25,772 nucleotides of DNA from a virus: positions 1 through 25,772 of the IMG/VR virus record IMGVR_UViG_3300028790_000097; one strand, written 5' to 3'. Position numbers and translations under genes: made by a program. This document shows, piece after piece, positions 7,683 through 25,021 of this stretch. The number at the start of each line of letters is the position of its first letter. Within the stretch, counting starts at the first letter, position 1. The notes beneath the pieces were generated by a model that saw only the letters and a program-made list of their open reading frames with translations, was not told the origin of the DNA and made no database searches.

Positions 7683-8693
7683 CTACCGTTTGGTCAACTC
7701 GCCTCGCAGCCAATCGTTCATGGAGGGCACCCCGTTGCGTCCCCGCCCGATACCGGCGACCAGCTCGGGTTCTCCGTCGTCTTCGGCGCGCTGGGCCCGG
7801 CGCTGCGCGTTGTCGCGCTTGCGCTGGGGCCCCCCGCGCAGCTTGCGCGCCTCGTCGGCGCGCCACACCTGCTCGAGCCGGCGCAGGGCGGCGCGCACCA
7901 GCTGCAGCCGCCCGTCGAGGCCCTCCGGCAGGTCGGCCAGGAGGGGGGCGCGGTCGGCCTCCGGCAGGGCACTCATGATCGGGTCAATCGATACCCGGTC
8001 GTAGTGCTCGACCAGCCCCCGGACGAAGCCCTCCTGCTGCTGCAGGGCGTCGACCTGCTCCTCCAGCTCGGCCGCCTTGTAGACGTCCGTCTGGCGCAGC
8101 TCCCGCGCCTGCTGCTTGAGCCCCTCCACCCGCTGCTGGCGCGTGAACCGGCCCTGCTCGTCGCGCTGCTTGTTGGCCCGCGCCACGCGCCGGTCGATCT
8201 CGCTCTGGATGGCCCGCGAGAACGGGCCGTCCGCCTGGGCCAGCTCCTGCAGCTCGTCCCCGGAGAGGGACGCCAGCTGCTGGCTGATCGCCCCGGCCCG
8301 CTCGCTCAGGGGTTGAGCGGGGGGCGCGTCGGGGCGTGGGGGGGAGGGCTCCCGGCCGTCTGCGTCGGGGCGCGAAGCGGGCTCACTCCGCGGGCCCTCC
8401 GGCGCGCCGGCCGCCCCGTCGCTGCGAACCCCCTGCCGACCGAAGAGGCGGTGCAGGAAGTCCGACGCCGGTGACGCGCGCTCCGCGGGGCCCTCGGCAC
8501 CGCTCTCGGCCCGCCCGTCGGCGGGGGGAGGGGGAGGGTTCGGGGAGCCACCCGCAGAGCGGCCGTCCTGAGGGCGGCTCGGCGGCCGCCACCCGGTGTC
8601 GGGGGTGCGCGAACGCGCCGGTTCCGGCGGCGCTTGGCCCGCTTGGGGCGCTGGGGCTGCCGGTGCGGCCGCGTCCTGACCCGTCTCGCTCAC
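7683..8693 (-). CDS. capsid scaffold-like protein
   Basis: I chose the GTG at 8693 (VSETGQ..., 336 residues). GGGAG lies 12 bases upstream, and a more upstream TTG at 8747 would put the start inside a promoter-like repeat. The first 130 residues are Pro/Ala/Arg-rich and look disordered. The rest is strongly helical: QLASLSGDELQELAQA, EIDRRVARANKQRDEQGRFT and a coiled coil LKQQARELRQTDVYKAAELE, followed by a Lys/Arg-rich segment. The C-terminus ends NDWLRGELTKR; basic C-terminal ends are used by scaffolds to bind capsid subunits. Position immediately before the major capsid gene supports a scaffold role. Sequence identity in this class is low, so the assignment rests mainly on context and architecture. 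Confidence 0.75.
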   Translation of the reverse strand: MSETGQDAAAPAAPAPQAGQAPPEPARSRTPDTGWRPPSRPQDGRSAGGSPNPPPPPADGRAESGAEGPAERASPASDFLHRLFGRQGVRSDGAAGAPEGPRSEPASRPDADGREPSPPRPDAPPAQPLSERAGAISQQLASLSGDELQELAQADGPFSRAIQSEIDRRVARANKQRDEQGRFTRQQRVEGLKQQARELRQTDVYKAAELEEQVDALQQQEGFVRGLVEHYDRVSIDPIMSALPEADRAPLLADLPEGLDGRLQLVRAALRRLEQVWRADEARKLRGGPQRKRDNAQRRAQRAEDDGEPELVAGIGRGRNGVPSMNDWLRGELTKR

Positions 8694-8718
8694 GGTTGCG
8701 GTGGGCTCCCTGCGGGCG

Positions 8719-8752
8719 ATGGTAGGCCCTGTCAAGCAAGTAGTCAAGCAAT
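8719..8752 (-). promoter_or_regulatory. promoter-like site with tandem TTGCTTGAC repeat upstream of scaffold/capsid genes
   Basis: On the minus strand TTGCTTGAC occurs at 8751-8743 and again at 8739-8731. The first copy supplies a -35-like TTGACT (8747-8742), which is 17 bases from a -10-like TACCAT (8724-8719). The predicted transcript would begin about 20 bases before the scaffold GTG at 8693. A near-identical motif stands in front of the terminase copy at 21083-21117, which suggests a phage-specific promoter or operator. Confidence 0.6.
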
Positions 8753-8785
8753 GCGACTGAGCGTGTAAAGAACGGGGACCACCGG

Positions 8786-8829
8786 AACGCCCCCGGCGGG
8801 AGGTCGCCGGGGGCGTTTAGGCCAAACGC
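8786..8829 (-). terminator. strong hairpin with overlapping alternative hairpin (terminator or attenuator-like)
   Basis: A perfect 13-base-pair stem AACGCCCCCGGCG (8786-8798) pairs with CGCCGGGGGCGTT (8805-8817) around a six-base loop. A second stem, GCGTTT (8813-8818) with AAACGC (8824-8829), shares bases 8813-8817 with it, so the two are mutually exclusive. It lies between the 590-residue protein and the scaffold promoter, a sensible place to end or attenuate transcription from the portal side. No clear U run follows, so this may be a pause or processing site instead. Confidence 0.6.
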
Positions 8830-12465: not shown

Positions 12466-12771
12466 ATGACCACCGCTCGCGTCCCCCGCCCCCGCCCCGA
12501 GGCGTACACCGCCCCGGTGAGCCCGCTCCTCCCGGGCGCACCCGGGCGCCTCGAGACCGCCGTCGCCCTGCTGTACCTGCCCGTCGGCGTCTTCGCCGTG
12601 TTCGGGGGGGCCATCTCGTTCCTCGTGCTGACCGCGGTGGGGATCGACGTGATGGGCGGCGCCGGGTGGTGGGAGCCCGCCCCCTTCGTCATGTGGTTCG
12701 GGGGCACGCTGGGGTTCTCCTGGGGCGTTGGCCGGCTCGAGCGGTGGCTGCGCCGCGTCATCCGAGGCTGA
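12466..12771 (+). CDS. small two-helix membrane protein (holin-like or exclusion-type), unknown
   Basis: The product has 101 residues, encoded opposite to every neighbour. It fills the 334-base gap between two minus-strand genes, and its stop overlaps the 3' end of the 1130-residue protein gene by 14 bases. The N-terminus is Arg/Pro-rich (ARVPRPRPEAY). Two hydrophobic segments follow: about 31-60 (a long LLYLPVGVFAVFGGAISFLV stretch) and about 73-88 (FVMWFGGTLGFSWGVG). The end is basic (RLERWLRRVIRG). A GGGAG with five-base spacing supports the start. Small phage membrane proteins of this type include holins, antiholins and superinfection-exclusion proteins. The separate orientation and own promoter-like box resemble a moron gene. 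There is no family match I can name, so the function is open. Confidence 0.7.
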   Translation: MTTARVPRPRPEAYTAPVSPLLPGAPGRLETAVALLYLPVGVFAVFGGAISFLVLTAVGIDVMGGAGWWEPAPFVMWFGGTLGFSWGVGRLERWLRRVIRG

Positions 12772-15700
12772 CCCCGTACTTCTTCTCGATGGCCTTGCGC
12801 TGACGGGCGAGCGCATCGGCATCGCGCCGCGTCTTGTTGACCAGGGCGAAGGCGTCCGGCTCCTCCTCGCGCAGCTTGGCCCGCCAGCCCCCCTCACCGT
12901 ACTTCTTCTTGTACTCCGTCTCGAGCGACTGGGCCCGGGAGATGGCCGCGTTCTGGGTGCGCACCTCGTCCGGGGTGCCCTGCACCCCCACGTACTTGGG
13001 GACGGCGTCCCACTCCCGCTGGGCCTGCTGCTTGGTGCCCCGGGTCACGCCCTCGCCCAACACCACGTCGGCCCGGTCGGCGGCGGTGCGCAGCGCGTCC
13101 TGCAGCGCGCTCTTCTTGCCCGCGTCGTCGAGCTTGGCGTACCCCGGCTTGGCCATCGCCTCCCGCACGGTTTTGCCGGTCTCGCTCCCCAGGGCGCGCT
13201 GCGCGGCCCGGCGCTGTTCGGGGGTCGGCTTCGCCCCCTCGTACGCCTCGGTGCGCCCCAGCACGCGGGGTTGGAGGCCGAGGCGGGCCAGCTCGAGGCC
13301 CTCGTCGGTCTGCACGTCACCCCGCTCGCCCCAGTACCGGGAGAGGCCGGTCCCTTCCCGGCGCTGGTCCTCCCCCGTCACCGGGTCGATGCGGGTGGGC
13401 ACCAGCGCCCGCAGCCCGGTGCGGCTCGCCACCTGCTCGGGGAACGTCTCCGCCTGGCGCTCGTAGGGGTCGGCGGCGCCGATGATGGTGGTGAGGGGCC
13501 CGGTGAAGCGCGAGGGCTGGCCGGCCAGGAGCGACCGGGTGGCCCCCGCCGCGCCCTGGGGGCCGTTGACGGCGTCGACGAAGTCGACCATGTCAGACAG
13601 GTAGCTGGCCTTCAGCCCCCACCGCCAGGCCGCGTTGTAGCCGTTCTCGAGCACCGCGCCGGGGTCGCCCCCCTCCGCCTGCGCCTTGCGCGCGGCGTCC
13701 AGCGTGGTGGCGATGGCGCTGGCCTGCATCCCCAAGGAGCCCAGGTAGCGGCTGGGGATGCGCTGCCCGGTCGGCGTCGCGACCGTGTTCCACTGCTCGC
13801 CCTGGGCCTCCCGGCGCCGGCGCTCGTTGGGGTCGGCCGGCGGGTCGCCGGTGACGCCGCCGTTGAAGTAGGCGATGGTCAGGGCCGTGGTCGCCGCCAT
13901 CCCGGCCGCGGCCCGCCCGGCGAACTCCCGCGCCGCGGCCGTGTCGCCCCGCTTGAGCGCGCGCACGAGGCCGACCCCCGCCTCCGCCGGCACCAAGGAG
14001 CCGATGGTGGCCCGCAGCAGCCGTTCGGGCATCAGCACGTAGGGGGCCATGCTGGTCACGGCCGCGGCGACGCCCTTATCCAGCAGGCTGGCGTTCGGGT
14101 CGCGGATGGCCCCCTTCAGCTCGGTCAGCTTCTTGGCCACCGCCGAGTTGGGCCCGCCCCAGGTGGCGAAGTCGCCGGCGGACTGGGTCATCCGGGCCGT
14201 GTCGGCGGCCCCCAGCCGGTGGCGGGCGGCCCGGGCGCCGGCGCCGGCCTCGTTGACCGTGCGCCAGAACTCGTCCAGGGCGGCGTTGGCGCGGGTGCCG
14301 GCGGTGAGGACGGTGGGGGCCAGCCCGCCCCGGGAGAGCAGGTCGCCGCTGGTCTGGGCGCCGGTCATCCCGGGGTTGAACTGGGTGGGGCCGGCGCCGA
14401 ACGCCTCGCGCACCTTGCGGCCCGCCCCGGGGAGGGAGCGCACCATCCCGCCGAGGTCGACGAGGGCGTCGATGGGGCGCCCCTCGAACGCCACGCCCGC
14501 AACGCGCTCCACCGTCCGGGCCATCCCGGAGGTGAAGTTGGCGAGCTGCGACGTCGGCGCCGCCAGCGGGATCGCCCCCATCAGCTCGGGGATGTCCCCG
14601 AGGGTGATCCGGCCCCGTCCCGGCGGCGCCCCCCGGCCCGCGGCCCCGGCGGCGGCCCCCAGCACGTCGTCCGCCAAGGTGCCGGAGGCGACCCGCCCCA
14701 GCTGGCGCAGGTTGGCCCCGCCCAGGGCGCCCGCGGCCGACCCCAGGGCGAAGCGCCCGGCCCGCTCCTGCCACGTGGCGTCCTCGTCCGCCGTCGCGGC
14801 GGCGGCCACGCCCCCGGCCGTGCCCGCCGCCAGGTCGAAGGCCCGCTCCCCGGTCGTCTGCGCCCCCCGGGCCAGGAAGGGGTCGGTGGCGCGCGTGGCC
14901 GCCCCGAGGAGGCCGTCGCCGGCAGCGGCGCCCTCGGGCACGACCCCGGCGGGCAGCACGTCCTCCAGCCCCTTGGCGGCGAGGTACTCCCGCGCCGCCC
15001 GCTCGCCCTCCGCGCCCTTGCCCACGGCCAGCAGGCGCAGGTCGTCGGCCGCGGCCTCGCCGTCGGCCCCGCGGCGCCAGAGCCGCTGGATGGCGTCGAA
15101 CACCCGCTGCTCGGCCTCGCCGTCCACGGCGCGCTGCGCCTGCTGCTCCGGCGTGAGCCGGGGCATGCGGAAGCGTTGCCCGCTGCGGATGCCCAGCCCG
15201 CCGGCCTCGTCCGCTTCCGCCGCCGCCGCCTGCCCGAAGCGGTACGGGACGCGCCCCAGGACGTCGCCCACGCCGCTCAGCACCTGGGGGGCGGCCGTGG
15301 CCAGCTCCCCCACGCCCGCGCCCATGTTGGCGCCCTCGAAGCCCCGGGTGACCACCCCCGCCGGTGGGGCGCCGGCCGCGATCCCGGTGCCGATCCCGAG
15401 GGCCGCGCCGGCGGGGGCGAGGGCGGCGGGAGCGGCGCGCAGCCAGCTGGGGGCGTTCGCCGCCAACCCGCCCTCGATGGAGCCGATGGTGCCCCCCGGC
15501 CCCACCGTCGACATGACGCCCTGCGCCGCGGCCTGCGTCTCCGGGAGCCCGCCGGCCGCCCCGGCCAGCTCGCTCGCCACCTCCCCCGGCGCCGTGAAGG
15601 GGGTCGTGCCCACCTGGAAGGCGCCCGCGGCCTGGGCCGGCAGGTCGGCCCCCTGCGGGCCGAACCCGGTCATCGCCTGGACGGCCTGCCCGGTCTTGTT

Positions 15701-16150
15701 CTGTACCCGCCCGAGGCCCTGCCACGCCTCACCCCCGGCGCCGGCCAGCACGCCCAGGGGCATGGGCAGGTCGGGGCGCTCGGCGGCGTAGCGGTCGGCG
15801 GTGGCGTTCAAGTTCGCCGCCTGCCGGTCGGAGAAGTCCTGCAGCCCGGCGGCGCTGGGGATGGCCCCGGCCACGTCGCTGCCGATCTGCCCGATGCGCG
15901 CCAGGGCCCCCTGCGCCCAGTCCCCCACCCCCTCGAGCGGGGAGGGGGCCGGCAGGGGCGGCGGGGCGGGCGGCGGCGGTGGAGGCGGGAGGTCCGGCAC
16001 CAACCCGTCGAGGGCGGAGGTGGCCCGGCCGATCCAGTCCCCCGCGGTGGCCCCGGCCGCGGCGATGCGCTGCCGGGCGACCTGCTCGGCCCGGCGGCGC
16101 TGGAAGTCGAGCCAGCTCCCGGCGTCTACGGGCGGTAACGCGCCGTCCAT
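12758..16150 (-). CDS. large internal/ejection-type virion protein (1130 aa)
   Basis: The product is a giant Ala/Gly-rich protein from the ATG at 16150. The N-terminus is a charged helix (WLDFQRRRAEQVARQRIAAA) followed by a poly-proline stretch (about 54-70). Several Ala/Gly-rich, weakly hydrophobic helices follow. A conserved-looking helical block at about 585-880 contains TPFARTP-like counterparts (MAPYVLMPERLLRATIGSL near 700), LVRALKRGDTAAAREFAGRA, an AYFNGGVTGDPP turn and GQRIPSRYLGSLGMQASAIA. This arrangement resembles the C-terminal domains of large polyvalent/internal virion proteins of short-tailed phages (LPD-type). The C-terminal 200 residues are Lys/Arg/Glu-rich helices. Such proteins travel with the genome and form or line the channel through the envelope. 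The assignment rests on pattern resemblance and operon context. Confidence 0.7.
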   Translation of the reverse strand: MDGALPPVDAGSWLDFQRRRAEQVARQRIAAAGATAGDWIGRATSALDGLVPDLPPPPPPPAPPPLPAPSPLEGVGDWAQGALARIGQIGSDVAGAIPSAAGLQDFSDRQAANLNATADRYAAERPDLPMPLGVLAGAGGEAWQGLGRVQNKTGQAVQAMTGFGPQGADLPAQAAGAFQVGTTPFTAPGEVASELAGAAGGLPETQAAAQGVMSTVGPGGTIGSIEGGLAANAPSWLRAAPAALAPAGAALGIGTGIAAGAPPAGVVTRGFEGANMGAGVGELATAAPQVLSGVGDVLGRVPYRFGQAAAAEADEAGGLGIRSGQRFRMPRLTPEQQAQRAVDGEAEQRVFDAIQRLWRRGADGEAAADDLRLLAVGKGAEGERAAREYLAAKGLEDVLPAGVVPEGAAAGDGLLGAATRATDPFLARGAQTTGERAFDLAAGTAGGVAAAATADEDATWQERAGRFALGSAAGALGGANLRQLGRVASGTLADDVLGAAAGAAGRGAPPGRGRITLGDIPELMGAIPLAAPTSQLANFTSGMARTVERVAGVAFEGRPIDALVDLGGMVRSLPGAGRKVREAFGAGPTQFNPGMTGAQTSGDLLSRGGLAPTVLTAGTRANAALDEFWRTVNEAGAGARAARHRLGAADTARMTQSAGDFATWGGPNSAVAKKLTELKGAIRDPNASLLDKGVAAAVTSMAPYVLMPERLLRATIGSLVPAEAGVGLVRALKRGDTAAAREFAGRAAAGMAATTALTIAYFNGGVTGDPPADPNERRRREAQGEQWNTVATPTGQRIPSRYLGSLGMQASAIATTLDAARKAQAEGGDPGAVLENGYNAAWRWGLKASYLSDMVDFVDAVNGPQGAAGATRSLLAGQPSRFTGPLTTIIGAADPYERQAETFPEQVASRTGLRALVPTRIDPVTGEDQRREGTGLSRYWGERGDVQTDEGLELARLGLQPRVLGRTEAYEGAKPTPEQRRAAQRALGSETGKTVREAMAKPGYAKLDDAGKKSALQDALRTAADRADVVLGEGVTRGTKQQAQREWDAVPKYVGVQGTPDEVRTQNAAISRAQSLETEYKKKYGEGGWRAKLREEEPDAFALVNKTRRDADALARQRKAIEKKYGVSLG

Positions 16151-16171
16151 GGTGCCCTCGCTGGCGCTCCC

Positions 16172-18199
16172 TTACCGCTGGAAGAAGTTGTAGGACGCGC
16201 TCGAGGCCCCGGCCGCGCGGGGAGCGGCGCCCTTCATCAGGTTCTCGACGTCGTTGGCGTCCCAGCCCTGGTCCTCGTACTGGCCGAGGATCATCTCCCG
16301 CTGGGAGGGCTGCATCCGGGCCCAGTTGGAGAGGTCGGCCTGGCGCGGGTTGCCCAGCGTCTGCTGCGCGGCGGGGTCCTGCCCGTAGGTGCCGGAGAGG
16401 ATGTCCCCGGCCAACCCGGCGGCGCTGGCCCGGCCGCCCTGCGCCTGCCCCTGGGCCCCCTGCCCGGTCGGCAGCTGGTAGCGCCCCTGGTAGGCCGCCA
16501 GCACGTCCTGCAGCCCCTGGGGGGTGGCCCCGAAGGTGGACTGGTAGCGCGCGTAGTCGCGGGGCCCCTTCATGCTGGCCTGGAGGCTGAGCAGGTACTG
16601 CGCCTGGGCGTTCTCCTGGGCGATGGCCTGCTGCGTCTTCTGGCCGTTGTACATCCCCGTCAGCCCCGCCTCGCTGACCCCTTGGGCAAACCGCTGCTGC
16701 TGCATCGACTGCGTGTCCGCCCCGCCGAACTGCCCGGTGAGGCCCGCCGTCTGGTACGCCTTGCTCCAGGCGTCGCGGGCCTCTTCCAACGCGATGCGGG
16801 TGTCCCCCTGGCGCAGAAGGGCCTGCTGGTACGCCCAGTAGGCGGCCCGGTCGGCGGCGTCCGCCGCGTTCTTGTTGGCGATGGCGTCCTCGGTGCTGCT
16901 GCCCGTCCCCGGCGCCCCGCCCGGCTGGACGTTCCGCCCGCCCAGGGCGGCCCCGCCGATCTGCTGCTGGGTGAGCCCCGTCTTCTCCTGGATCATCTGC
17001 CACGCCTGCGGGTCCTGGACGAAGATGCGCCCGGCGCGGATCTCGTCGAGCAGCCCCTGCCACATGGCCGGCGGCGCCGACCAGGCGGGGGTGCCGATGC
17101 CGGTGGGCGTGTCCGAGCGCAGGAAGAGGGTGGCGAGGTAGTCCTTGCCCGCCGTCTCCGGGGTCTGCCCCCAGTTGGACGTCACCGTCGACCCGAAGAA
17201 GCCGCCGCCCATCCCGCCCCCACCGCCGCCCGTCGGCGCGTAGGCGTAGGGGGGCGCCGCCGCGGCCAGGGCCGGGTCGAAGCCCCCGCCGCCCCCGCCC
17301 AGCCCGTGCTCCCGGCGCCACCGCGCGTCGCCCTGCAGGGCCTGCGTGCCGTCGGTGGCCTTCCCGGTGATCCACCGCTGCGGGGTCTGCACCTCGGCGC
17401 CCGTGGTCGGGTCGCCCGTGCCCCCCAGCCCGTACCGGCTGTTGACGACCTCGTTCCCGATCTTCTGGAACAGCCCCTGCGGCGCGCCGGGGAACCGGGG
17501 CGTCTGGTCCTGGGTGTTCAGAGCGAACTGGTTGTAGGTGCCGCTCCCCGGGATGTAGCCCGGGGCCAGCTTGGGGTCGAAGAGGTAGGGGAGGTCGGCC
17601 TCGTTGATCTTGATGGGGGCCTGGTTGAAGCCGGGCACGCCCCAGCCGTAGGGCTGGCCCTCCGTGCCGGCGCCGATGGTGCCCCAGCCGGCGCCGCGCC
17701 CCTGGGTGGGGTCGGCCGCGTTCCAGGTCGACGGGGCCACCGTCGAGCCGAACGGGACGTCCGTCGGCCGCCCCGGGACGGTCTGCCCGGGCATGGCGCC
17801 GGGGTAGCGCCCCGTCCCGGGGCGGGTGGGGCCGTAGTTGAAGTCCTCGCCCGGGCGCCCAGTGCCCACCGGGCCGGTCGGCGCGCGGGGGTTCACCGGC
17901 GCACCGGGCGCCGCCGGGCCCGCGGCCGGGGGCGCGCCCTGGAGCTGGGGCGGCGGGTTGGCGATGTCGAAGGCGGTGAGGCTGCCGTCGGGGTTGATGA
18001 CGGCGGCGCGCCCGCCCCCCAGGTCGGCGGGGTCGGGGCGCCCGGGGTTGATGTAGGCGACCTCCTGCTCCGTGTTCGCGTCCCAGACGACGTAGCTGCC
18101 GTCGCTGTAGCGCGTGCCGATGAGCCAGCGCCCCTGGGCGTCGCGCCCCAGGTCGAGCGCGTCGTAGTCCGTGACGGGGGTGGCGCCGGGTGCGGGCAT
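16172..18199 (-). CDS. putative internal virion protein (675 aa)
   Basis: The ATG at 18199 begins three bases after the preceding stop. The N-terminal 80 residues are short strand-turn units (GRWLIGTRYSDGSYVVWD, GRAAVINPDGSLTAFDIA) like those in the 590-residue protein of the same operon. The middle is Gly/Pro-rich and contains WRREHGL (294-300) and Gly runs (301-306, 324-333). The C-terminal 320 residues are helical and Gln/Ala-rich, with two copies of an AGLTG-[QM]-[FY]-x-G motif (485-493 and 511-519) of a kind seen in large phage structural proteins. It ends SYNFFQR. No enzyme signature is visible. Placement between the portal and the 1130-residue protein suggests a core or ejection protein, inferred only. 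Confidence 0.62.
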   Translation of the reverse strand: MPAPGATPVTDYDALDLGRDAQGRWLIGTRYSDGSYVVWDANTEQEVAYINPGRPDPADLGGGRAAVINPDGSLTAFDIANPPPQLQGAPPAAGPAAPGAPVNPRAPTGPVGTGRPGEDFNYGPTRPGTGRYPGAMPGQTVPGRPTDVPFGSTVAPSTWNAADPTQGRGAGWGTIGAGTEGQPYGWGVPGFNQAPIKINEADLPYLFDPKLAPGYIPGSGTYNQFALNTQDQTPRFPGAPQGLFQKIGNEVVNSRYGLGGTGDPTTGAEVQTPQRWITGKATDGTQALQGDARWRREHGLGGGGGGFDPALAAAAPPYAYAPTGGGGGGMGGGFFGSTVTSNWGQTPETAGKDYLATLFLRSDTPTGIGTPAWSAPPAMWQGLLDEIRAGRIFVQDPQAWQMIQEKTGLTQQQIGGAALGGRNVQPGGAPGTGSSTEDAIANKNAADAADRAAYWAYQQALLRQGDTRIALEEARDAWSKAYQTAGLTGQFGGADTQSMQQQRFAQGVSEAGLTGMYNGQKTQQAIAQENAQAQYLLSLQASMKGPRDYARYQSTFGATPQGLQDVLAAYQGRYQLPTGQGAQGQAQGGRASAAGLAGDILSGTYGQDPAAQQTLGNPRQADLSNWARMQPSQREMILGQYEDQGWDANDVENLMKGAAPRAAGASSASYNFFQR

Positions 18200-18844: not shown

Positions 18845-21061
18845 CTAGGTGCCCATCTGCTGGCCCGGGAGGGGCCGCATGTTCGGCGGCGGCCCCTGCA
18901 CGTTCGGTCCCCCGCCGGGGTTGCTCGGCAGGCCCCCGGGCGCCATGTTCGGCCCGGTGCTGCCGGCGCCGCCGACGCTGCCCGGTGTGGGCGGCGCGAA
19001 GGGCATGCCTTGGCCGGGGGCCATGGCGTCCGGCGCGCCGAGCTGCAGCCCCCCCGGCCCGGGCATCCCGGGCGCCATCCCTGGGGGGGCACCCGGGGGC
19101 ATCCCGGGCGGCCCCGGCGGACCGGGGGCGCCGCCCAGCTCTTCCATGGCCTGGGCCTGCTGGATGCCCAGGAGCTGGAAGATGCGGTCGGTCAGGCGCT
19201 TCTGGATCTCCGGGCTCCGCTTGAGGTTCTCCACCAGGAGCTGCCGCTCGACGGCGCCGGGGTCCTGCCCCAGCTCCTCCATGGCCTGCGTCCGGGAGGT
19301 GAGCCCCGCCTGCAGCATCTCGACCTGGGTGCGCACCTCGAGCACGCGGTTGGAGGGCACCTCCGCGTCCAGGGCCACCCGGTAGCGGTGCACCCCCTTC
19401 AGCTCGTCGGGGCCCACCGCCAGCCAGCCCTCCCGCGCGCCCCGGACGCCGGGGTTGTACCCGCGGCGGGGGGACACCGTGGGCAGGTTGCCCCAGCAGT
19501 ACACCTTCTCCCCGATGCACTCGTCGATCAGGTAGCTCTCGAAGCCCACCCGCTCGCTCAGGGCGAACTGGGCGTTCCCCAGCAGGGGCGAGTAGCGCAG
19601 GCTCCCCAGGTAGGCGCTCTGGTTGAGGGCGTAGCCGCTGGCCCCGGTGTCGGCGCCGGCGAGCGCGTCGGGCAGGATGCGCTTGAAGATGTTGACCGTG
19701 TCCTCCTTGGCCTGCTGGAGGTCGATCCCGGTGCGGGGCGGCTCGATGGGGGACACGTCGAAGGGCAGCACCTCGCCGGGCACCACCTGCACCGGGCGCT
19801 GGGCGTCCCGCTCCCCGCCGTCGATGCCGAAGGGGGCCACGCCCGGGCCGGCCGCGGCGCCGATGGCGCTCACCATGTTGGCCCCCGGCGGGGCGTTGCG
19901 CTTCCAGGAGGGGAAGCCCGTCATGAACGCCGCGTTCGAGGTGAGCGTGAGCAGCTGGTCGTAGAGCTGGAACAGGTTCAGGTAGCCGAAGAGGACGCCC
20001 AGGGACATCAGCTCGGGCTCGCGCTGCCCGGTGGTGATGCCCCCGGCCCGGAAGTAGGGGCCCCGCAGGGTGCGCGTCTCCGCGACCCCGTAGTGGTGGC
20101 GCACGCTCTTGACGATGGTGCCCTTCCCCAGCGCGGCCCCGCCGCGGGAGGCGCCCTGCCCCGGCCCCACCAGCGAGTAGTGCACGTCCTGCCAGTCCCA
20201 CAGCTCCACCAGATCGAGGCTGGCGACGCCGGACATGACCTGGCCCCACTGGGAGCGGGGCAGGCCCAGGTGCTCCTCGGGGACGACGCGGCCCCCGGAG
20301 CCCAGCCCGGCGCCGAAGCGGGTGAGCGCCTCGAGGTAGGGGATGGACTTGATCTCCGCCGCCAGGGTCATCCCGCCGGCCTCGGAGGCCCAGTGGTAGA
20401 AGGTGCTGGGGGGGATGTCCGTCGACTTGATGGGGTAGGCCGCGGCCCGCTTGGCCTCGTCGGTCAGCTGGTCGTACGCCTGCTCCCGCTGGTGGGCCTT
20501 GCCCCGCCCGTCGGCGTACTCGCCGTACTCGGCGTCCTCCGGGTCACGCATCCGCCGGTCGAGGTCGCGCACCGTGCGGGAATACGCACGCCACGCGGAT
20601 TGACTCCGTTCGACGGTCTTCATGATCGCTTCGCCGTAAGCGACCAGCGACCACATGTAGCTGCGGAAGAGCTGCCGGCCCGCCTCCTGCTCCTGGCGCG
20701 TCCACGACGCCGAGAAGAATTTCTCTCTGAGCTCGGCGTTGTTCTGCGCCTCGCTCCCGCTGGCGACCGGCTCGAAGTTGACCTCCGGCGCGTTCACCGT
20801 CAGGGCCGCGGTGATGGAGTTCACCATGTCCAGCGCCAGGGGCGCCTTGGTGACGATGGTGCTCTCCTCGTACGCCTTGGGCACCTTGACGTCGTAGCGC
20901 CCGAAGAGCACCCGCTCCGTGGCCTGGAGGTTCTTGTCCCGCAGCGCGAAGTCGCTGAGCAGCTGCTGGGCGACGTCGGTGACGTAGCCCTCCGCGGCGG
21001 GCACGTAGGACTTGCCGCGGCCGCGGACGCGCTCGTCGTCCGGGCGCTTGCGTTGGGCCAT
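18845..21061 (-). CDS. portal protein with Gly/Pro/Met-rich collagen-like C-terminal tail
   Basis: The product has 738 residues from the ATG at 21061, with GGGGG upstream. Portal-type features: an N-terminal helical segment, SYMWSLVAYGEAIMKTVERS (about 134-153), YHWASEAGGMTLAAEIKS, a central block (LMSLGVLFGYLNLFQLYDQL, then TSNAAFMTGFP), IDLQQAKEDTVNIFKRILPD and SGYALNQSA, as in large portals of short-tailed phages, then a helical C-domain (LEVRTQVEMLQAGLTSRTQA, then LLVENLKRSPEIQKRLTDRI). It forms the dodecameric vertex through which DNA enters and exits. The last 110 or so residues are rich in GPPG, PPGM and APGM triplets, an unusual collagen-like extension. It is the first gene of the minus-strand virion operon and diverges from the terminase side. 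Confidence 0.88.
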   Translation of the reverse strand: MAQRKRPDDERVRGRGKSYVPAAEGYVTDVAQQLLSDFALRDKNLQATERVLFGRYDVKVPKAYEESTIVTKAPLALDMVNSITAALTVNAPEVNFEPVASGSEAQNNAELREKFFSASWTRQEQEAGRQLFRSYMWSLVAYGEAIMKTVERSQSAWRAYSRTVRDLDRRMRDPEDAEYGEYADGRGKAHQREQAYDQLTDEAKRAAAYPIKSTDIPPSTFYHWASEAGGMTLAAEIKSIPYLEALTRFGAGLGSGGRVVPEEHLGLPRSQWGQVMSGVASLDLVELWDWQDVHYSLVGPGQGASRGGAALGKGTIVKSVRHHYGVAETRTLRGPYFRAGGITTGQREPELMSLGVLFGYLNLFQLYDQLLTLTSNAAFMTGFPSWKRNAPPGANMVSAIGAAAGPGVAPFGIDGGERDAQRPVQVVPGEVLPFDVSPIEPPRTGIDLQQAKEDTVNIFKRILPDALAGADTGASGYALNQSAYLGSLRYSPLLGNAQFALSERVGFESYLIDECIGEKVYCWGNLPTVSPRRGYNPGVRGAREGWLAVGPDELKGVHRYRVALDAEVPSNRVLEVRTQVEMLQAGLTSRTQAMEELGQDPGAVERQLLVENLKRSPEIQKRLTDRIFQLLGIQQAQAMEELGGAPGPPGPPGMPPGAPPGMAPGMPGPGGLQLGAPDAMAPGQGMPFAPPTPGSVGGAGSTGPNMAPGGLPSNPGGGPNVQGPPPNMRPLPGQQMGT

Positions 21062-21125
21062 GTGGCCCCCATCATACGCCACATTGTTTGACAATCGAGC
21101 GGCGATTGCTTTACAGGATGACGCG
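21062..21125. promoter_or_regulatory. divergent control region between portal and terminase-side genes
   Basis: These 64 bases are markedly AT-richer than their surroundings. On the plus strand there is a perfect -35-like TTGACA (21088-21093) and a weak -10-like TACAGG (21112-21117). On the minus strand TATGAT (21076-21071) lies only nine bases from the portal ATG, as in leaderless or near-leaderless transcripts. Two overlapping inverted repeats sit on the plus-strand -35: ATTGT-TTG-ACAAT (21083-21095) and CAATCG-AGCGG-CGATTG (21092-21108). These look like operator arms for a dimeric regulator. ATTGTTTGAC (21083-21092) and TTGCTTTACAGG (21106-21117) match the motif found before the scaffold gene. 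Confidence 0.6.
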
Positions 21126-21206
21126 ATGACCACCGCTGCGCCGCCGCTGCCCGCCGCGTCCTGGGACGCCGTCGCGCTCGAGCTGGCCCGGCGGCGTCCG
21201 GAGGCG
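21126..21206 (+). pseudogene. duplicated 5' fragment of the large terminase gene
   Basis: The ATG at 21126 has AGGA seven bases upstream and opens a frame whose first 27 codons resemble the start of the intact terminase 674 bases downstream: SWDAVALELARRRPEA here against SWEAVALELARRDPAC there, with a shared 12-base DNA core GTCGCGCTCGAG. The ribosome-binding contexts also match (TACAGGAT...ATG here, TACAGGGT...ATG there). The similarity stops where the antisense HNH gene ends (21207). The frame happens to stay open to 21809 through the HNH gene, but that part has no terminase similarity. The likeliest reading is a remnant of the terminase start left by insertion of the HNH gene. Confidence 0.65.
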
Positions 21207-21710
21207 TTACTCCCCGAGCATCTCCATGTACTGCCGCCGTGCTTCAACCGCCTCCTCAAGGGTGTCGAAGCGGCCGATATGGACCTGCTTGTACATGACG
21301 TGGACGCGAGCAATCCAGCGACCGTTCGGGGTCTGTCGCACCCCAACGAACCCACTTCTGCCTCGCGCGTCCTGGTTCCGCATGTTGGTGGGGTGGCTCA
21401 CCAGTCGCAGGTTGCTGCGCCGGTTGTCCAGCTTGTCGCGGTTGATGTGGTCAACCACGAGGTCGCCGCGGCGCCAGACGCGCAGGGGCTGCTCAGGCAA
21501 GCCCAGAACCTCGCGGTGCATGTAGACGACCCATTGGCGCACGACGCCCGGGGCGACCGCCCGCGTAATGCGCCGCGCGGCGTACCCGCTCCCCTGGAAG
21601 TACCACCGATGCGCCAACAGCCGGCGGTAATCGGCCGCGTCGACCAGGGCGTACTTCCCTCGGGTGAGGGGGATCACGCAGGGGCCGAGGGTAAACTTAG
21701 GCGGCGCCAT
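21207..21710 (-). CDS. HNH homing-type endonuclease with AP2-like DNA-binding domain
   Basis: The product has 167 residues. The ATG at 21710 was chosen because AGGAGG (21726-21721) lies ten bases upstream. HNH motif: MHREVLG (64-70), VVDHINRDKLDNRRSNLRLV (85-104, with the Asp87-His88 pair and Asn100) and N109 in PTNMRNQ. An AP2/integrase-like DNA-binding domain follows: SGFVGVRQTPNGRWIARVHV (119-138) and IGRFDTLEEAVEARR (145-159). This is the standard layout of free-standing phage HNH homing endonucleases, which cut intact alleles to spread their own gene. It is antisense to terminase, lies between a terminase 5' fragment and the full terminase, and is visibly less GC-rich than its neighbours. 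All three point to recent acquisition. Confidence 0.93.
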   Translation of the reverse strand: MAPPKFTLGPCVIPLTRGKYALVDAADYRRLLAHRWYFQGSGYAARRITRAVAPGVVRQWVVYMHREVLGLPEQPLRVWRRGDLVVDHINRDKLDNRRSNLRLVSHPTNMRNQDARGRSGFVGVRQTPNGRWIARVHVMYKQVHIGRFDTLEEAVEARRQYMEMLGE

Positions 21711-21775
21711 GGGAGCTGGTCCTCCTGTGGTGAAGTGGGCGGCGGGGTGTTGACGCACCTCGCCGCCTGCGCCTC

Positions 21776-21782
21776 TATTTTA
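21776..21782. promoter_or_regulatory. AT-rich box between HNH gene and terminase
   Basis: TATTTTA is the only AT-rich patch in this gap. It reads as TAAAAT on the minus strand (21782-21777, towards the HNH gene) and TATTTT on the plus strand (21776-21781, 18 bases before the terminase ATG). A plus-strand TTGACG stands upstream, but its spacing to the box (20 bases) is too long for a standard promoter. It is a candidate -10 element for one or both genes. Confidence 0.35.
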
Positions 21783-21799
21783 CCGGCTACAGGGTACGC

Positions 21800-23308
21800 A
21801 TGGCCGTGACGGTGGCCGCCGAGGCGCCCTCGTGGGAAGCGGTCGCGCTCGAGTTGGCGCGCCGCGACCCCGCTTGCTACGCCCTTGTGGCGCACGGACT
21901 GCGCCCGGCGCCGCACCACCGGCGCTGGCTGGCGGCGCTCAGAGAGACGGTGGAGACGCCCGGGGGGCGGCTGCTGCTCATCGCGCCGCCGGGGACGGCG
22001 AAGAGCACGTACACCAGCCAGGTGCTGCCCCTGTGGTATCTGGGCAACCACCCCGACCGGGCGGTGTTGGCCACCACCAGCAGCGACGTGATGGCCAGCG
22101 AGTTCGGCGGGGTGATCGACCTGGCCCTGCGCCAGAACGAGGCGCACGGCGCGGTGTTCCCGGACGGGGCGTGCCGGCCGGACCCGGCGCGGGGGTGGAG
22201 CAGCGACGGGCTGTACCTCAAGGGCGTCCCGCCGGAGACCAAAGACCCCAGCTACCGGGTGGCCGGGCTGGGCTCGAGCGTCATCGGCTCCCGGTGCCAC
22301 CTGCTGCTGCTCGACGACCCGGTGACCCAGGAGACGGCCCAGAGCGAGGCGGAGATGCGCCGCACCCGGCGCTACCTCGACCTGACCCTGCTGACCCGGC
22401 TGCACCCCGGGGGCAGCGCCGTCGCCATCATGACCCGGTGGGGCGAGGCGGACGTGGCCGCCCACCTCATCGCCCAGGGGTGGCGCGTGGAGGTGTGGCC
22501 CCAGCTCTCGGAGGACTACGCGGGGGACGAGCGGGACGGGGAGGGGCGCGCCGCGCTGTGGCCGGGGCGGTACCCGCTGGCCTGGGTGCAGGCGGAGCGC
22601 CAGCGGCTGGGGACGGCGCAGTTCGAGCTGATCCACCAGGGCAACCCCTTGCTCATGGGGGGCGCGGTGTGGCGCGCCGCCGGGTGGTTCCGCGATCTGC
22701 CCCCGCACACGCAGCAGCTCACCGCGCGGGGGACGCCCTTCCTCGAGGAGTGCGTCCGCTGCACCTACATCGACACGGCGTGGAGCGAGAAGCAGACCGC
22801 GGACTGGACGGCTGCCGTCACGTGCGCCTACCACCCGAGCGACCCGGCGCGCTGCCTGTACGTGCTGGGGGCGTGGCGCCGGCGGGTGGACGAAGACGGG
22901 CTGGCGGAGGCCCTGGCCGAGCACCTGCTGGCGGTGCGCCCCCACGTGGTGGGGGTGGAGCAGGCGGCCTACAAGCAGGCGGCCACCGGCGCGCTGGTGC
23001 AGGAGCTGGTGTACCGCACCAACGGCCGGCTGGCGACCACCGTGCGGGCCATCCCCAGCGTGGTGGACAAGGTGACCCGCGCCCGGCCGGCGGCGGCCAA
23101 GGGCGAAGCGGGGCTGCTGTGCGTCGACCGCGACGTGCCCGAGATGGAGGCACTGATCCGGGAGTGCCTGGCGCTGCCCGTGGGCGCCCACGATGACCTC
23201 TGCGACGCCCTCTCGGGGGCGGCGGCCATGTGCCTCTACGGGGCGGAGACGCTCACCGCGGGGCAGGTGACGGCCGGCGGGCCGCCGCAGCGGCTGCGCT
23301 TCGGGTAG
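21800..23308 (+). CDS. terL: terminase large subunit
   Basis: The product has 502 residues. The ATG at 21800 has AGGG five bases upstream. ATPase domain: Walker A PPGTAKST (63-70), Walker B LLLLDDP (168-174), and a TRWGEAD coupling motif (212-218). Nuclease domain: YIDTAWSEKQTADWT with Asp325, VGVEQAAYKQ with Glu387, and HDDLCDALSG with Asp465/466 and Asp469. These supply the acidic residues that bind metal in the RNase H-like fold. TerL powers DNA translocation into the prohead through the portal and cuts the concatemer. It is unusual in lying on the strand opposite to both the portal operon and the putative small terminase. Its 3' end overlaps the convergent gene by 56 bases. A fragment of a second copy of its 5' end lies upstream of the HNH gene. 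Confidence 0.97.
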   Translation: MAVTVAAEAPSWEAVALELARRDPACYALVAHGLRPAPHHRRWLAALRETVETPGGRLLLIAPPGTAKSTYTSQVLPLWYLGNHPDRAVLATTSSDVMASEFGGVIDLALRQNEAHGAVFPDGACRPDPARGWSSDGLYLKGVPPETKDPSYRVAGLGSSVIGSRCHLLLLDDPVTQETAQSEAEMRRTRRYLDLTLLTRLHPGGSAVAIMTRWGEADVAAHLIAQGWRVEVWPQLSEDYAGDERDGEGRAALWPGRYPLAWVQAERQRLGTAQFELIHQGNPLLMGGAVWRAAGWFRDLPPHTQQLTARGTPFLEECVRCTYIDTAWSEKQTADWTAAVTCAYHPSDPARCLYVLGAWRRRVDEDGLAEALAEHLLAVRPHVVGVEQAAYKQAATGALVQELVYRTNGRLATTVRAIPSVVDKVTRARPAAAKGEAGLLCVDRDVPEMEALIRECLALPVGAHDDLCDALSGAAAMCLYGAETLTAGQVTAGGPPQRLRFG

Positions 23309-23633
23309 TCGCCCGCTGCCGGCGGCGCTCCCGGATGGCCCGGGCGGCCCGGGTGACGGGGTCGAGGCACTCGAAGTTGCGCTGGTGGGAGGCGATGAGG
23401 TGGCCGCAGCGCGGGCAGGCGAAGGCCTCCCGCTCGAGGCGCGCCCGCAGGGCCAGCACCTGCTCCCGGGTGGCGGTGATGACGGCCTGCGCCGCCGTGC
23501 AGCAGGGCAGGGCGCAACAGGGGCGGGCCGCCTCGGGATCGAGGGTGGCCCACAGGCGGCGCCGGGTGGGGCAGGTGCAGCGCACCGCACCGGCGGGGGC
23601 CGCCCGGTTCCAGCCGCCCCGGGGGGTGGTCAC
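23253..23633 (-). CDS. small Cys-rich zinc-binding-type protein (126 aa)
   Basis: The GTG at 23633 overlaps the upstream TGA by four bases (GTGA), indicating coupling. Cysteines cluster as C19-x-C21 and C39-C40-x3-C44-C45 near the N-terminus, and as CPRCGH (73-78) with Cys89. The second cluster looks like a zinc ribbon after a charged helix (REQVLALRARLEREAFACPR). The C-terminus is Arg/Ala-rich and overlaps terL on the opposite strand. No family is recognised. A small nucleic-acid-binding or regulatory protein is plausible but inferred from the Cys pattern alone. Confidence 0.65.
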   Translation of the reverse strand: MTTPRGGWNRAAPAGAVRCTCPTRRRLWATLDPEAARPCCALPCCTAAQAVITATREQVLALRARLEREAFACPRCGHLIASHQRNFECLDPVTRAARAIRERRRQRATTRSAAAAAARRPSPAPR

Positions 23634-23962
23634 GGCAACAGCCACCAGGGGTGCTTCCCGCGGAGCGCGGCGCCGGCCGCCGGCTCCCCTCCCCTCCAGG
23701 CAGGACGATACGGGAAGTGCCGACGGATCTCGGCCATCCCCCCTGCCCCGAGGCCCCGCGTCGCCCTGAGGACCGCGTCCGGGGTCGTCGTGACCTCCGC
23801 CGCGCTGAAGTACCCCCCACGGGCGAGGGTGTTCGCCGTCCGCGCGCTCAGCCGCTCCAGCAGCACGCGCTCGACCGGAGGCCACGCCCAGTGCCCCCCG
23901 CCTCCGTCGAACGCGCCATGGACCCACCGCGCATGCCGGTCGGCAGGTAACGCCCCGGCCAC
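23630..23962 (-). CDS. small protein with RNA polymerase alpha-CTD-like helix-hairpin-helix domain
   Basis: The product has 110 residues. The GTG at 23962 begins just after the preceding stop (23964). Residues 31-84 (ERVLLERLSARTANTLARGG, then FSAAEV, then LRATRGLGAGGMAEIRRHF) match the alpha C-terminal domain pattern: LS.R..N.L...G, a connecting L/V, then the R.LG..S..EI helix-hairpin-helix. In the host enzyme this domain contacts UP-element DNA and activators. Small phage and bacterial proteins with only this domain are often found, mostly without a known function. The N-terminal 30 residues and the Trp-rich end (KHPWWLLP) are extra. A DNA-binding or RNA polymerase-modulating role is possible. 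The domain resemblance is good; the function is inference. Confidence 0.72.
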   Translation of the reverse strand: MAGALPADRHARWVHGAFDGGGGHWAWPPVERVLLERLSARTANTLARGGYFSAAEVTTTPDAVLRATRGLGAGGMAEIRRHFPYRPAWRGGEPAAGAALRGKHPWWLLP

Positions 23963-23963
23963 G

Positions 23964-24251
23964 CTAGTGCCCGCCCTCGTCGGCCCCCTGCTCAGCGTCC
24001 AGCGTCCCCAAGCACCAGCCGTCGGCATACCCGGCGCAGTAGTCGCAGACGAAGCGCGCCCCCTCCGGGAACCGCTCGCGCCACTCCAGGGCGGTGCCCC
24101 GCTCCCAGGGGGGCACATCCGCCCGCCAGGTGCACGCTGCGAGATCGCGGTCATCGCCGGGGAAGCCGGGGCGGACGACGTGCCAGAGCGCCACGCGGGC
24201 GCCGTTCAGCGCCCGCCGCCGCGCCCAGCGAGGGGCGGCCTGGCTACCCAT
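23964..24251 (-). CDS. hypothetical protein with CxxC...C motif (95 aa)
   Basis: The ATG at 24251 overlaps the end of the preceding gene by eight bases. The N-terminus is basic (APRWARRRALNGARVALWHV). The remainder is acidic and aromatic, with CDYCAGYADGWC (about 69-80), three cysteines that could bind metal with a further ligand. No family is recognised. It belongs to the tightly packed minus-strand operon with the nuclease and putative small terminase. Confidence 0.6.
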   Translation of the reverse strand: MGSQAAPRWARRRALNGARVALWHVVRPGFPGDDRDLAACTWRADVPPWERGTALEWRERFPEGARFVCDYCAGYADGWCLGTLDAEQGADEGGH

Positions 24252-24594
24252 CGTCGGCCCCCAGCAGGGCGCGGGTGAGGCGCTCGACGTCGGCCTCCTC
24301 GACGTGGGCGCGGAGCAGCTCCCGGTGGGTCACCTGGGCGTCGACGGTGATGTCCGCCTCGAGCACGGCGACGGCCTTGCCGAACCCGCGGTCGGCCAGC
24401 CACTGCGCGGCGGCCATGCGCAGGGCGGTGGGCTGCTTGGGGTGGCGCAGGACGTTCAGCATGTACGCCACCAGCTCGGCGCCCTCTCGGGTCTCCTCCC
24501 GCACCAGCGCGGCCAGGCCCTTGGGGCGACCCCCGGGGTTGGGCGACGGCCGGCCGGGGAGGAAGCGACCTGATGGCCCCCTGTTCTCAGGCAT
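24244..24594 (-). CDS. DUF5681-like protein, putative terminase small subunit
   Basis: The product has 116 residues. I chose the ATG at 24594 because it overlaps the previous stop by only eight bases and removes a shadow N-terminus. The beginning GPSGRFLPGRPSPNPGGRPKG (split here: GRFLPG at 9-14 and NPGGRPKG at 19-26) is the signature of DUF5681-type phage proteins. Helices follow: ALVREETREGAELVAYMLNV, ALRMAAAQWLADRGFGKAV and a C-terminal ELLRAHVEEADVERLTRALL. In many phages such proteins stand near terL, and a DNA-recognition role as small terminase has been suggested. Here it is on the opposite strand, about 0.9 kb from terL. The family call is fair; the terminase role is inferred. Confidence 0.68.
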   Translation of the reverse strand: MPENRGPSGRFLPGRPSPNPGGRPKGLAALVREETREGAELVAYMLNVLRHPKQPTALRMAAAQWLADRGFGKAVAVLEADITVDAQVTHRELLRAHVEEADVERLTRALLGADDG

Positions 24595-25021
24595 CACCGA
24601 CCAACCCCTCGCGCAGGAACGTCCGCAGCCGCCCCAAGCACGGCAGGTCCTCCCGTGGCCCAAACTGCAGCAGCTCGGCCACGTCCTGCCGGTCGGAGGG
24701 CCAGACGAGGTAGGCCTCGTTGCCGGCCTCGAGGAGGTCGAGGAGCCAGCCGTCCTGCCCGTCCCGCCAGCGCCCGTTCACCTTGCGGCGGCGGGTGGGC
24801 CACTTCCCCTCCCGCTTCAGCTCCATCCAGACGGTGCGCCCCTGGCCCGGGTGCAGCAGCGTCAGGTCGGGGTAGCCGCTGTCCGACCCGATACTGTACT
24901 TCTCGTGGTGGACGCGCCAGCCCAGCAAGCGGGCCGTCCGGCGGACGAACGCCTGCAGGTCGGCCTCGCTTACCTGCGCGAGCAACCAGGTGGCGGGGTC
25001 GGCGGGCGCGGCGGCGGTCAC
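24587..25021 (-). CDS. VRR-NUC domain nuclease
   Basis: The product has 144 residues from the ATG at 25021, which overlaps the upstream stop (ATGA). PD-(D/E)XK-type VRR-NUC features: a leading helix SEADLQAFVRRTARLLGWRV, GSDSGYPDLTLL with Asp52, VWMELKREGK with Glu67 and Lys69, and a following QDGWLLDLLEAG with Gln89, then AYLVW. These are the metal-binding and catalytic positions of the family, which includes small phage resolvase-like and structure-specific endonucleases. The substrate is probably branched or recombining DNA, perhaps in processing replication concatemers before packaging; that is inference. The length is normal for phage members. Neighbouring genes are coupled by four-base overlaps. 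Confidence 0.9.
   Translation of the reverse strand: MTAAAPADPATWLLAQVSEADLQAFVRRTARLLGWRVHHEKYSIGSDSGYPDLTLLHPGQGRTVWMELKREGKWPTRRRKVNGRWRDGQDGWLLDLLEAGNEAYLVWPSDRQDVAELLQFGPREDLPCLGRLRTFLREGLVGDA

Follow-up and report, generated by a model that had tools for sequence, protein, structure and literature searches.

Mobile open reading frames (mORFs) of fungal mitochondria duplicate the ends of the genes in which they reside, as described for atp6 of Allomyces and for atp6, atp9, cox2 and nad3 of Glomus (PMC3630166). These mORFs encode LAGLIDADG or GIY-YIG endonucleases and lie within essential genes, which then possess two diverged copies of their 3' end; of these, the native one is stranded and agrees with relatives, while the one in use is foreign, and hybrid mRNAs have been shown. 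In T-even phages, the free-standing homing endonucleases of the seg and mob types are stand-alone genes located in or near essential genes, some of which, such as mobE and mobA, split their host genes, and leader hairpins are present in mobE, segB and seg43(25) (PMC2988022). Homing endonuclease genes have also been found to bound regions of exchange between phages, where they flank large islands (PMC10448857). In the methylase gene of phage ShiLan, an HNH gene is inserted out of frame, without an intron or intein, and reading of the host gene continues across it (PMC11855218). No report of a phage homing endonuclease with a replaced 5' end was found in the open-access literature.

A related arrangement is present in the window, that is, the whole stretch of 25,772 nucleotides analysed here, which is a linear IMG/VR fragment (25.8 kb, a metagenomic contig, 74.6% GC) of an uncultured phage. 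An ORF-composition screen revealed that its main genes are located on the minus strand, with the exception of terL, which is split close to its start by an antisense HNH gene (Table 1). A homing nuclease that splits an essential gene has to leave its host alive. The terL gene of the window possesses a complete replacement start past the insert, whereas the host genes of Aeh1 mobE and T4 mobA are present as two coding pieces (PMC2988022). As in ShiLan, neither an intron nor an intein is apparent; however, terL restarts past the insert instead of reading through it (PMC11855218). The nuclease is found at a junction of ancestries beside an essential gene, as are those that bound phage exchange, but here one gene whose start is duplicated is concerned, and not a large flanked island (PMC10448857).

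Table 1. Features of the terL region and related elements (positions refer to the window unless a contig is named).
Feature	Position	Strand	Remarks
Second HNH insertion site, empty in the window	16150..16172	-	occupied in L113, L114, L117, L121, L145
Portal gene	18845..21061	-	assigned by position and homology; left neighbour of the old terL start
Divergent gap, portal to old terL start	21062..21125		TTGACA 21088-21093, AGGA 21115-21118
Stranded old terL 5' end, ATG + 26 codons, MTTAAPPLPAASWDAVALELARRRPEA	21126..21206	+	abuts the HNH stop codon
HNH endonuclease, 167 aa, HNH_3 + AP2-like C-terminal domain	21207..21710	-	antisense to terL
HNH leader: GGTAAAATAGAGGCGCAG - hairpin - CCACTTCACC - AGGAGG - ATG	21695..21804	-	covarying; precedes unrelated HNH genes
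Leader hairpin, 15-16 pairs	21735..21770		covariation
Live terL, 502 aa, own diverged start	21800..23308	+	inverted relative to terS and portal
Live terL codons 21-26, RRDPAC	21860..21877	+	the six codons that precede the homologous insertion point; RRRPE[AV] in relatives
terS-like gene	24244..24597	-	85-90% identity to clade B, 71-72% to clade A
Leader copies	L117 9168-9275; L121 3449-3556; L114 4024-4132; L141 4873-4980; L145 12477-12583; L147 484-554		

The initial annotation had described a terL-like start with its own AGGA in front of the HNH gene, and this start could be confirmed. It consists of 27 codons with the shared stretch WDAVALELARRRPEA, while the second, diverged start reads WEAVALELARRDPAC; the N-terminus of the live gene reads MAVTVAAEAPSWEAVALELARRDPAC, with the longer opening MAVTVAAEAPSWEAVALELARRDPACYALVAHG. 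The likeness between the two ends, as had been proposed, exactly at the HNH stop codon, the last base being 21206 and the antisense TAA occupying 21207-21209. The copies also differ at about one third of the bases (30 of 45 match from the W to the last shared codon, 67%), although these 45 are the only alignable bases of the duplicated stretch. A local alignment of leader and 5' end of both starts scored above all 2,000 Markov shuffles. The similar TACAGG(A/G)T context claimed for both starts, by contrast, did not hold up: the TACAGGRT..ACGC likeness alone was equalled by 720 of 2,000 shuffles, and it was dropped as evidence for a common origin, since it is not significant by itself and the downstream leader is that of the HNH gene. 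A long open frame, which runs from the old ATG through the antisense HNH gene to 21809 and over the terL ATG, was likewise discarded as a chance expectation; it stays open in 94-100% of synonymous HNH versions. Because no k-mer of at least 11 bases spanning the 21206/21207 junction is repeated in the window, an assembly error is an unlikely source of this junction. For the portal gene on the left, no PHROGs or Pfam match was obtained, and the divergent gap contains a TTGACA, yet a sigma-70 scan passed no match there.

Seven IMG/VR contigs, whose terL is 55-69% identical to that of the window, were used as relatives and comprise clade A (L109, which equals L001, and L110) and clade B (L111, L112, L116, L117 and L121). 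Scans of genome contigs yielded only unrelated alpha/beta-hydrolase-like proteins. As predicted for HNH-free relatives, all seven carry a single terL 5' end and no HNH gene beside terL, and none carries both 5' segments. Their terL starts all read WD.VALELARRRPE[AV]Y, and one of the two 5' ends of the window was expected to match them. Indeed, the stranded one does: it equals the family consensus at 15 of 15 residues over WDAVALELARRRPEA, and blastn places it closest to L110, L116 and L111 at the start of terL (87-91% over 44-47 nt). At the DNA level, the relatives share 35-40 of 45 positions with the stranded fragment and 28-33 with the live start. Over the same 15 residues, the live start shows four replacements and several synonymous changes, and the N-terminus of live terL is unalignable. 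Because all seven relatives carry RRRPE, it is the stranded fragment that is family-like and the live copy that departs.

Two origins had been offered for this pair, namely arrival of a diverged 5' end together with the endonuclease or decay of the old start; the former fits, given the family consensus kept by the stranded copy and the departures of the working one. It is also conceivable that HNH insertion duplicated the terL start in place and that the copies then drifted, with the live one selected to lose the cut site. A run of 12 bases, GTCGCGCTCGAG, is common to both starts and exact in no relative, as might be expected of such a duplication. However, a non-coding dead copy should drift fastest, and a drifting dead duplicate would yield the reverse of the observed pattern, in which W..A is fully preserved in the disused copy and the replacements, the synonymous changes and the unalignable N-terminus are all found in the live one; in-place duplication is therefore unlikely. 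Since the disused copy is family-like and the working copy departs, the live terL start most likely arrived with the endonuclease.

The nuclease domain of the HNH protein belongs to HNH_3 (PF13392, 37 bits, cut-off 24.8), and the protein matches phrog_99 (4.9e-30). Its C-terminal region resembles AP2 (PF00847, E 1.5e-6) with 28.8 bits, which is under the cut-off of 33.3. As noted initially, the gene is less GC-rich (66.5%) than terL (75.2%) and the window as a whole. Its start is likely ATG 21710 behind the AGGAGG, rather than GTG 21758, because of the leader it shares with other HNH genes. The claim that a homing-type HNH gene split terL is supported, as terL is uninterrupted at the same codon in all seven relatives. 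HNH proteins of the gp74 type are common beside terminases, and the HNH gene of the window adjoins terL; it might thus encode a packaging partner as in HK97 and no homing enzyme at all. This is very improbable, given that the seven relatives lack an HNH gene beside terL, that the domain match is to HNH_3 with an AP2-like tail and that further HNH_3 genes are found at several sites in related contigs. The location of the endonuclease within a coding region would also be compatible with an unspliced intron or an intein remnant. Yet no Rfam match (group I/II intron ribozyme) was obtained in the window and the HNH gene is flanked on either side by the first terL codons, which makes an intron unlikely; as the HNH gene is, in addition, antisense, the probability of any such remnant is close to negligible.

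The terminase genes of the window are of mosaic ancestry. While terS is nearest to clade B (Table 1), live terL is 68-69% identical to clade A and 55-57% to clade B. Furthermore, terL of the window is opposite to terS and portal, and all three are co-oriented in every relative that could be checked, so that the supposed joining of terL to a divergent portal promoter in the relatives was not borne out. Because terS and terL are nearest to different clades and the terL orientation is unlike that of the relatives, terL has evidently been replaced, inverted, or both. The stranded fragment has the same inverted orientation, and the inversion would thus have preceded or accompanied the HNH event. 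This order of events is one that we infer, because no HNH-free phage with the inverted terL layout came to light, nor any donor-like phage in which an HNH gene precedes a single terL start. The interval between terL and terS (23300-24240) contains several small minus-strand ORFs, two of which were tested and had no family match; blastn detected no remnant of a clade B terL in it. The mosaic state of terL relative to terS, and the usual location of HNH cassettes of this group upstream of complete genes, would also be explained if an inverted terL and its upstream HNH cassette had been swapped by ordinary recombination, with a chance breakpoint at codon 27 and an idle endonuclease. However, the breakpoint coincides with the HNH stop codon and with a codon altered in the live copy, and homing nucleases have been found to delimit exchanged segments (PMC10448857); such passive transfer is quite improbable.

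The favoured explanation, to which a probability of roughly 0.6 is assigned, is that a free-standing homing HNH endonuclease cut the resident terL and that one-sided repair from a related phage left the old start stranded. The HNH protein, as a free-standing homing endonuclease, would have cut the resident gene at around codon 27, and a related phage with the HNH gene just upstream of an uncut, diverged terL start would have served as the repair template. On the right side, homologous repair inside terL would have copied the HNH gene of the donor together with its leader and the diverged terL start, whereas the left end would have been closed by non-homologous joining, thereby stranding the old start of the resident as a 27-codon fragment. 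One-sided repair would account for the precise point at which the stranded copy stops as well as for the complete second start. Cleavage, the direction of transfer, immunity of the live copy and one-sided repair are steps that we infer from sequence comparison.

The divergence of live terL beside the insertion point bears on this proposed immunity. Over the six codons before that point, live terL matches the relatives at 6-11 of 18 bases, compared with 20-22 of 27 over the preceding nine codons, and it is family-like again over the 15 codons past it (35-40 of 45). Between residues 12 and 300, 160 columns are invariant among the relatives; live terL departs at eight of these, three of which are residues 13, 23 and 25 (hypergeometric P 0.011-0.019). 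An escape from cleavage is a plausible reason for these clustered departures, but it is not proven, because 6-codon windows of equally low identity make up 6% of residues 12-300.

It had been suggested that the insert supplies terL with a replacement promoter. However, the interval between HNH and terL turned out to be the leader of the HNH gene itself, which is also seen before unrelated HNH genes. In HNH orientation, it consists of GGTA...AT.GAGGCGCAG, the hairpin, CCACTTCAC, usually a purine-rich ribosome site, and the start. The 90 bases from HNH to live terL have counterparts of 77-80% identity in L117, L121 and L114, which separate the start of a different antisense HNH gene from the structural gene that follows; further copies are found in L141 and L145. 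Among six sequences, both partners have changed in 7 of 15 hairpin pairs, and pairing is kept in 97.8% of cells, a level that none of 500 shuffles reached. The HNH proteins encoded behind the leader can be aligned only in the vicinity of the HNH motif (27%, E 7e-4; 33% over 36 residues) and differ in their accessory domains, which are AP2-like in the window and NUMOD4 in L117 and L145. When a covariance model was run over 0.2 Mb of related contigs, no further convincing leader emerged, and 0.8 Mb of other loci yielded none. A pattern scan revealed a diverged leader in two non-related contigs, L147 and L151 (covariance model E 0.086, weak alone), directly upstream of an HNH gene whose product is 39% identical to the window HNH over 77 residues, but no such leader in eight annotated phage HNH regions. 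In L147, which derives from an unrelated phage of lower GC, the leader precedes the HNH gene between co-oriented genes, and the idea of a promoter unit for the downstream gene was therefore abandoned. The G-U pairs of the hairpin lie on the terL strand; the independent cases are too few to assign the hairpin to a strand by G-U polarity.

The leader is thus evidently that of the HNH gene, and a cassette whose main role is to supply a terL promoter becomes less likely; terL may be transcribed by read-through from the region of the old start or from a promoter in or near the leader. In T4-type homing endonuclease genes, leader hairpins restrict expression (PMC2988022), and an expression-limiting role of the window hairpin would be reasonable by analogy. 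As one covarying leader fronts sequence-unrelated HNH genes, comparison of these loci suggests that control region and nuclease move or are exchanged as modules.

Other insertion sites were found in related phages. At the second site, the flanking genes of the window (12758-16150 and 16172-18199) are about 20 bases apart, and L109 is empty there, too. Where the site is occupied, at least two types of HNH gene are present, those of L113 and L114 versus those of L117, L121 and L145, and the leader accompanies all of them except that of L113, where the contig ends; it looks as if nucleases had replaced one another behind one leader. HNH gene and leader behave as a unit, the second site being found both occupied and empty. 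Gene ends are not duplicated at this site. The insert lies between genes there and inside a gene at terL, so that the stranded start is specific to terL. A third site is found in L141. The 41-kb contig of L117 (G008) carries four HNH_3 genes at about 1.8, 21.6, 31.4 and 34.5 kb, two with the shared leader and two without, and L111 has a NUMOD4/HNH-like gene without leader in sense orientation near terS (8112-8804). More tentatively, the terL locus might represent a phage home-and-rescue drive, in which an antisense HNH cassette travels with a cleavage-resistant 5' end and the modular hairpin leader lets unrelated HNH genes swap across sites.

Like the fungal mORFs, the HNH gene lies in an essential gene between two diverged copies of one gene end, of which the stranded native one is nearer to the relatives and the working one appears foreign (PMC3630166). 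In contrast to the mORFs, whose duplicated 3' end is in phase with the resident gene, the terL case concerns a 5' end, an antisense HNH gene and a phage, is known from sequence alone, and terL restarts at 21800. The arrangement would thus work like the mORF type, but it is not counted as a member.

Taken together, the terL case looks like a phage counterpart of the fungal carriers of foreign gene ends, at the 5' end and in antisense. It yields a concrete prediction for the target site, at around codons 21-27 of terL, and links an HNH gene to the replacement and inversion of terL, on which phage classification often relies. By analogy, such an element would resemble a natural gene drive equipped with its own repair copy.
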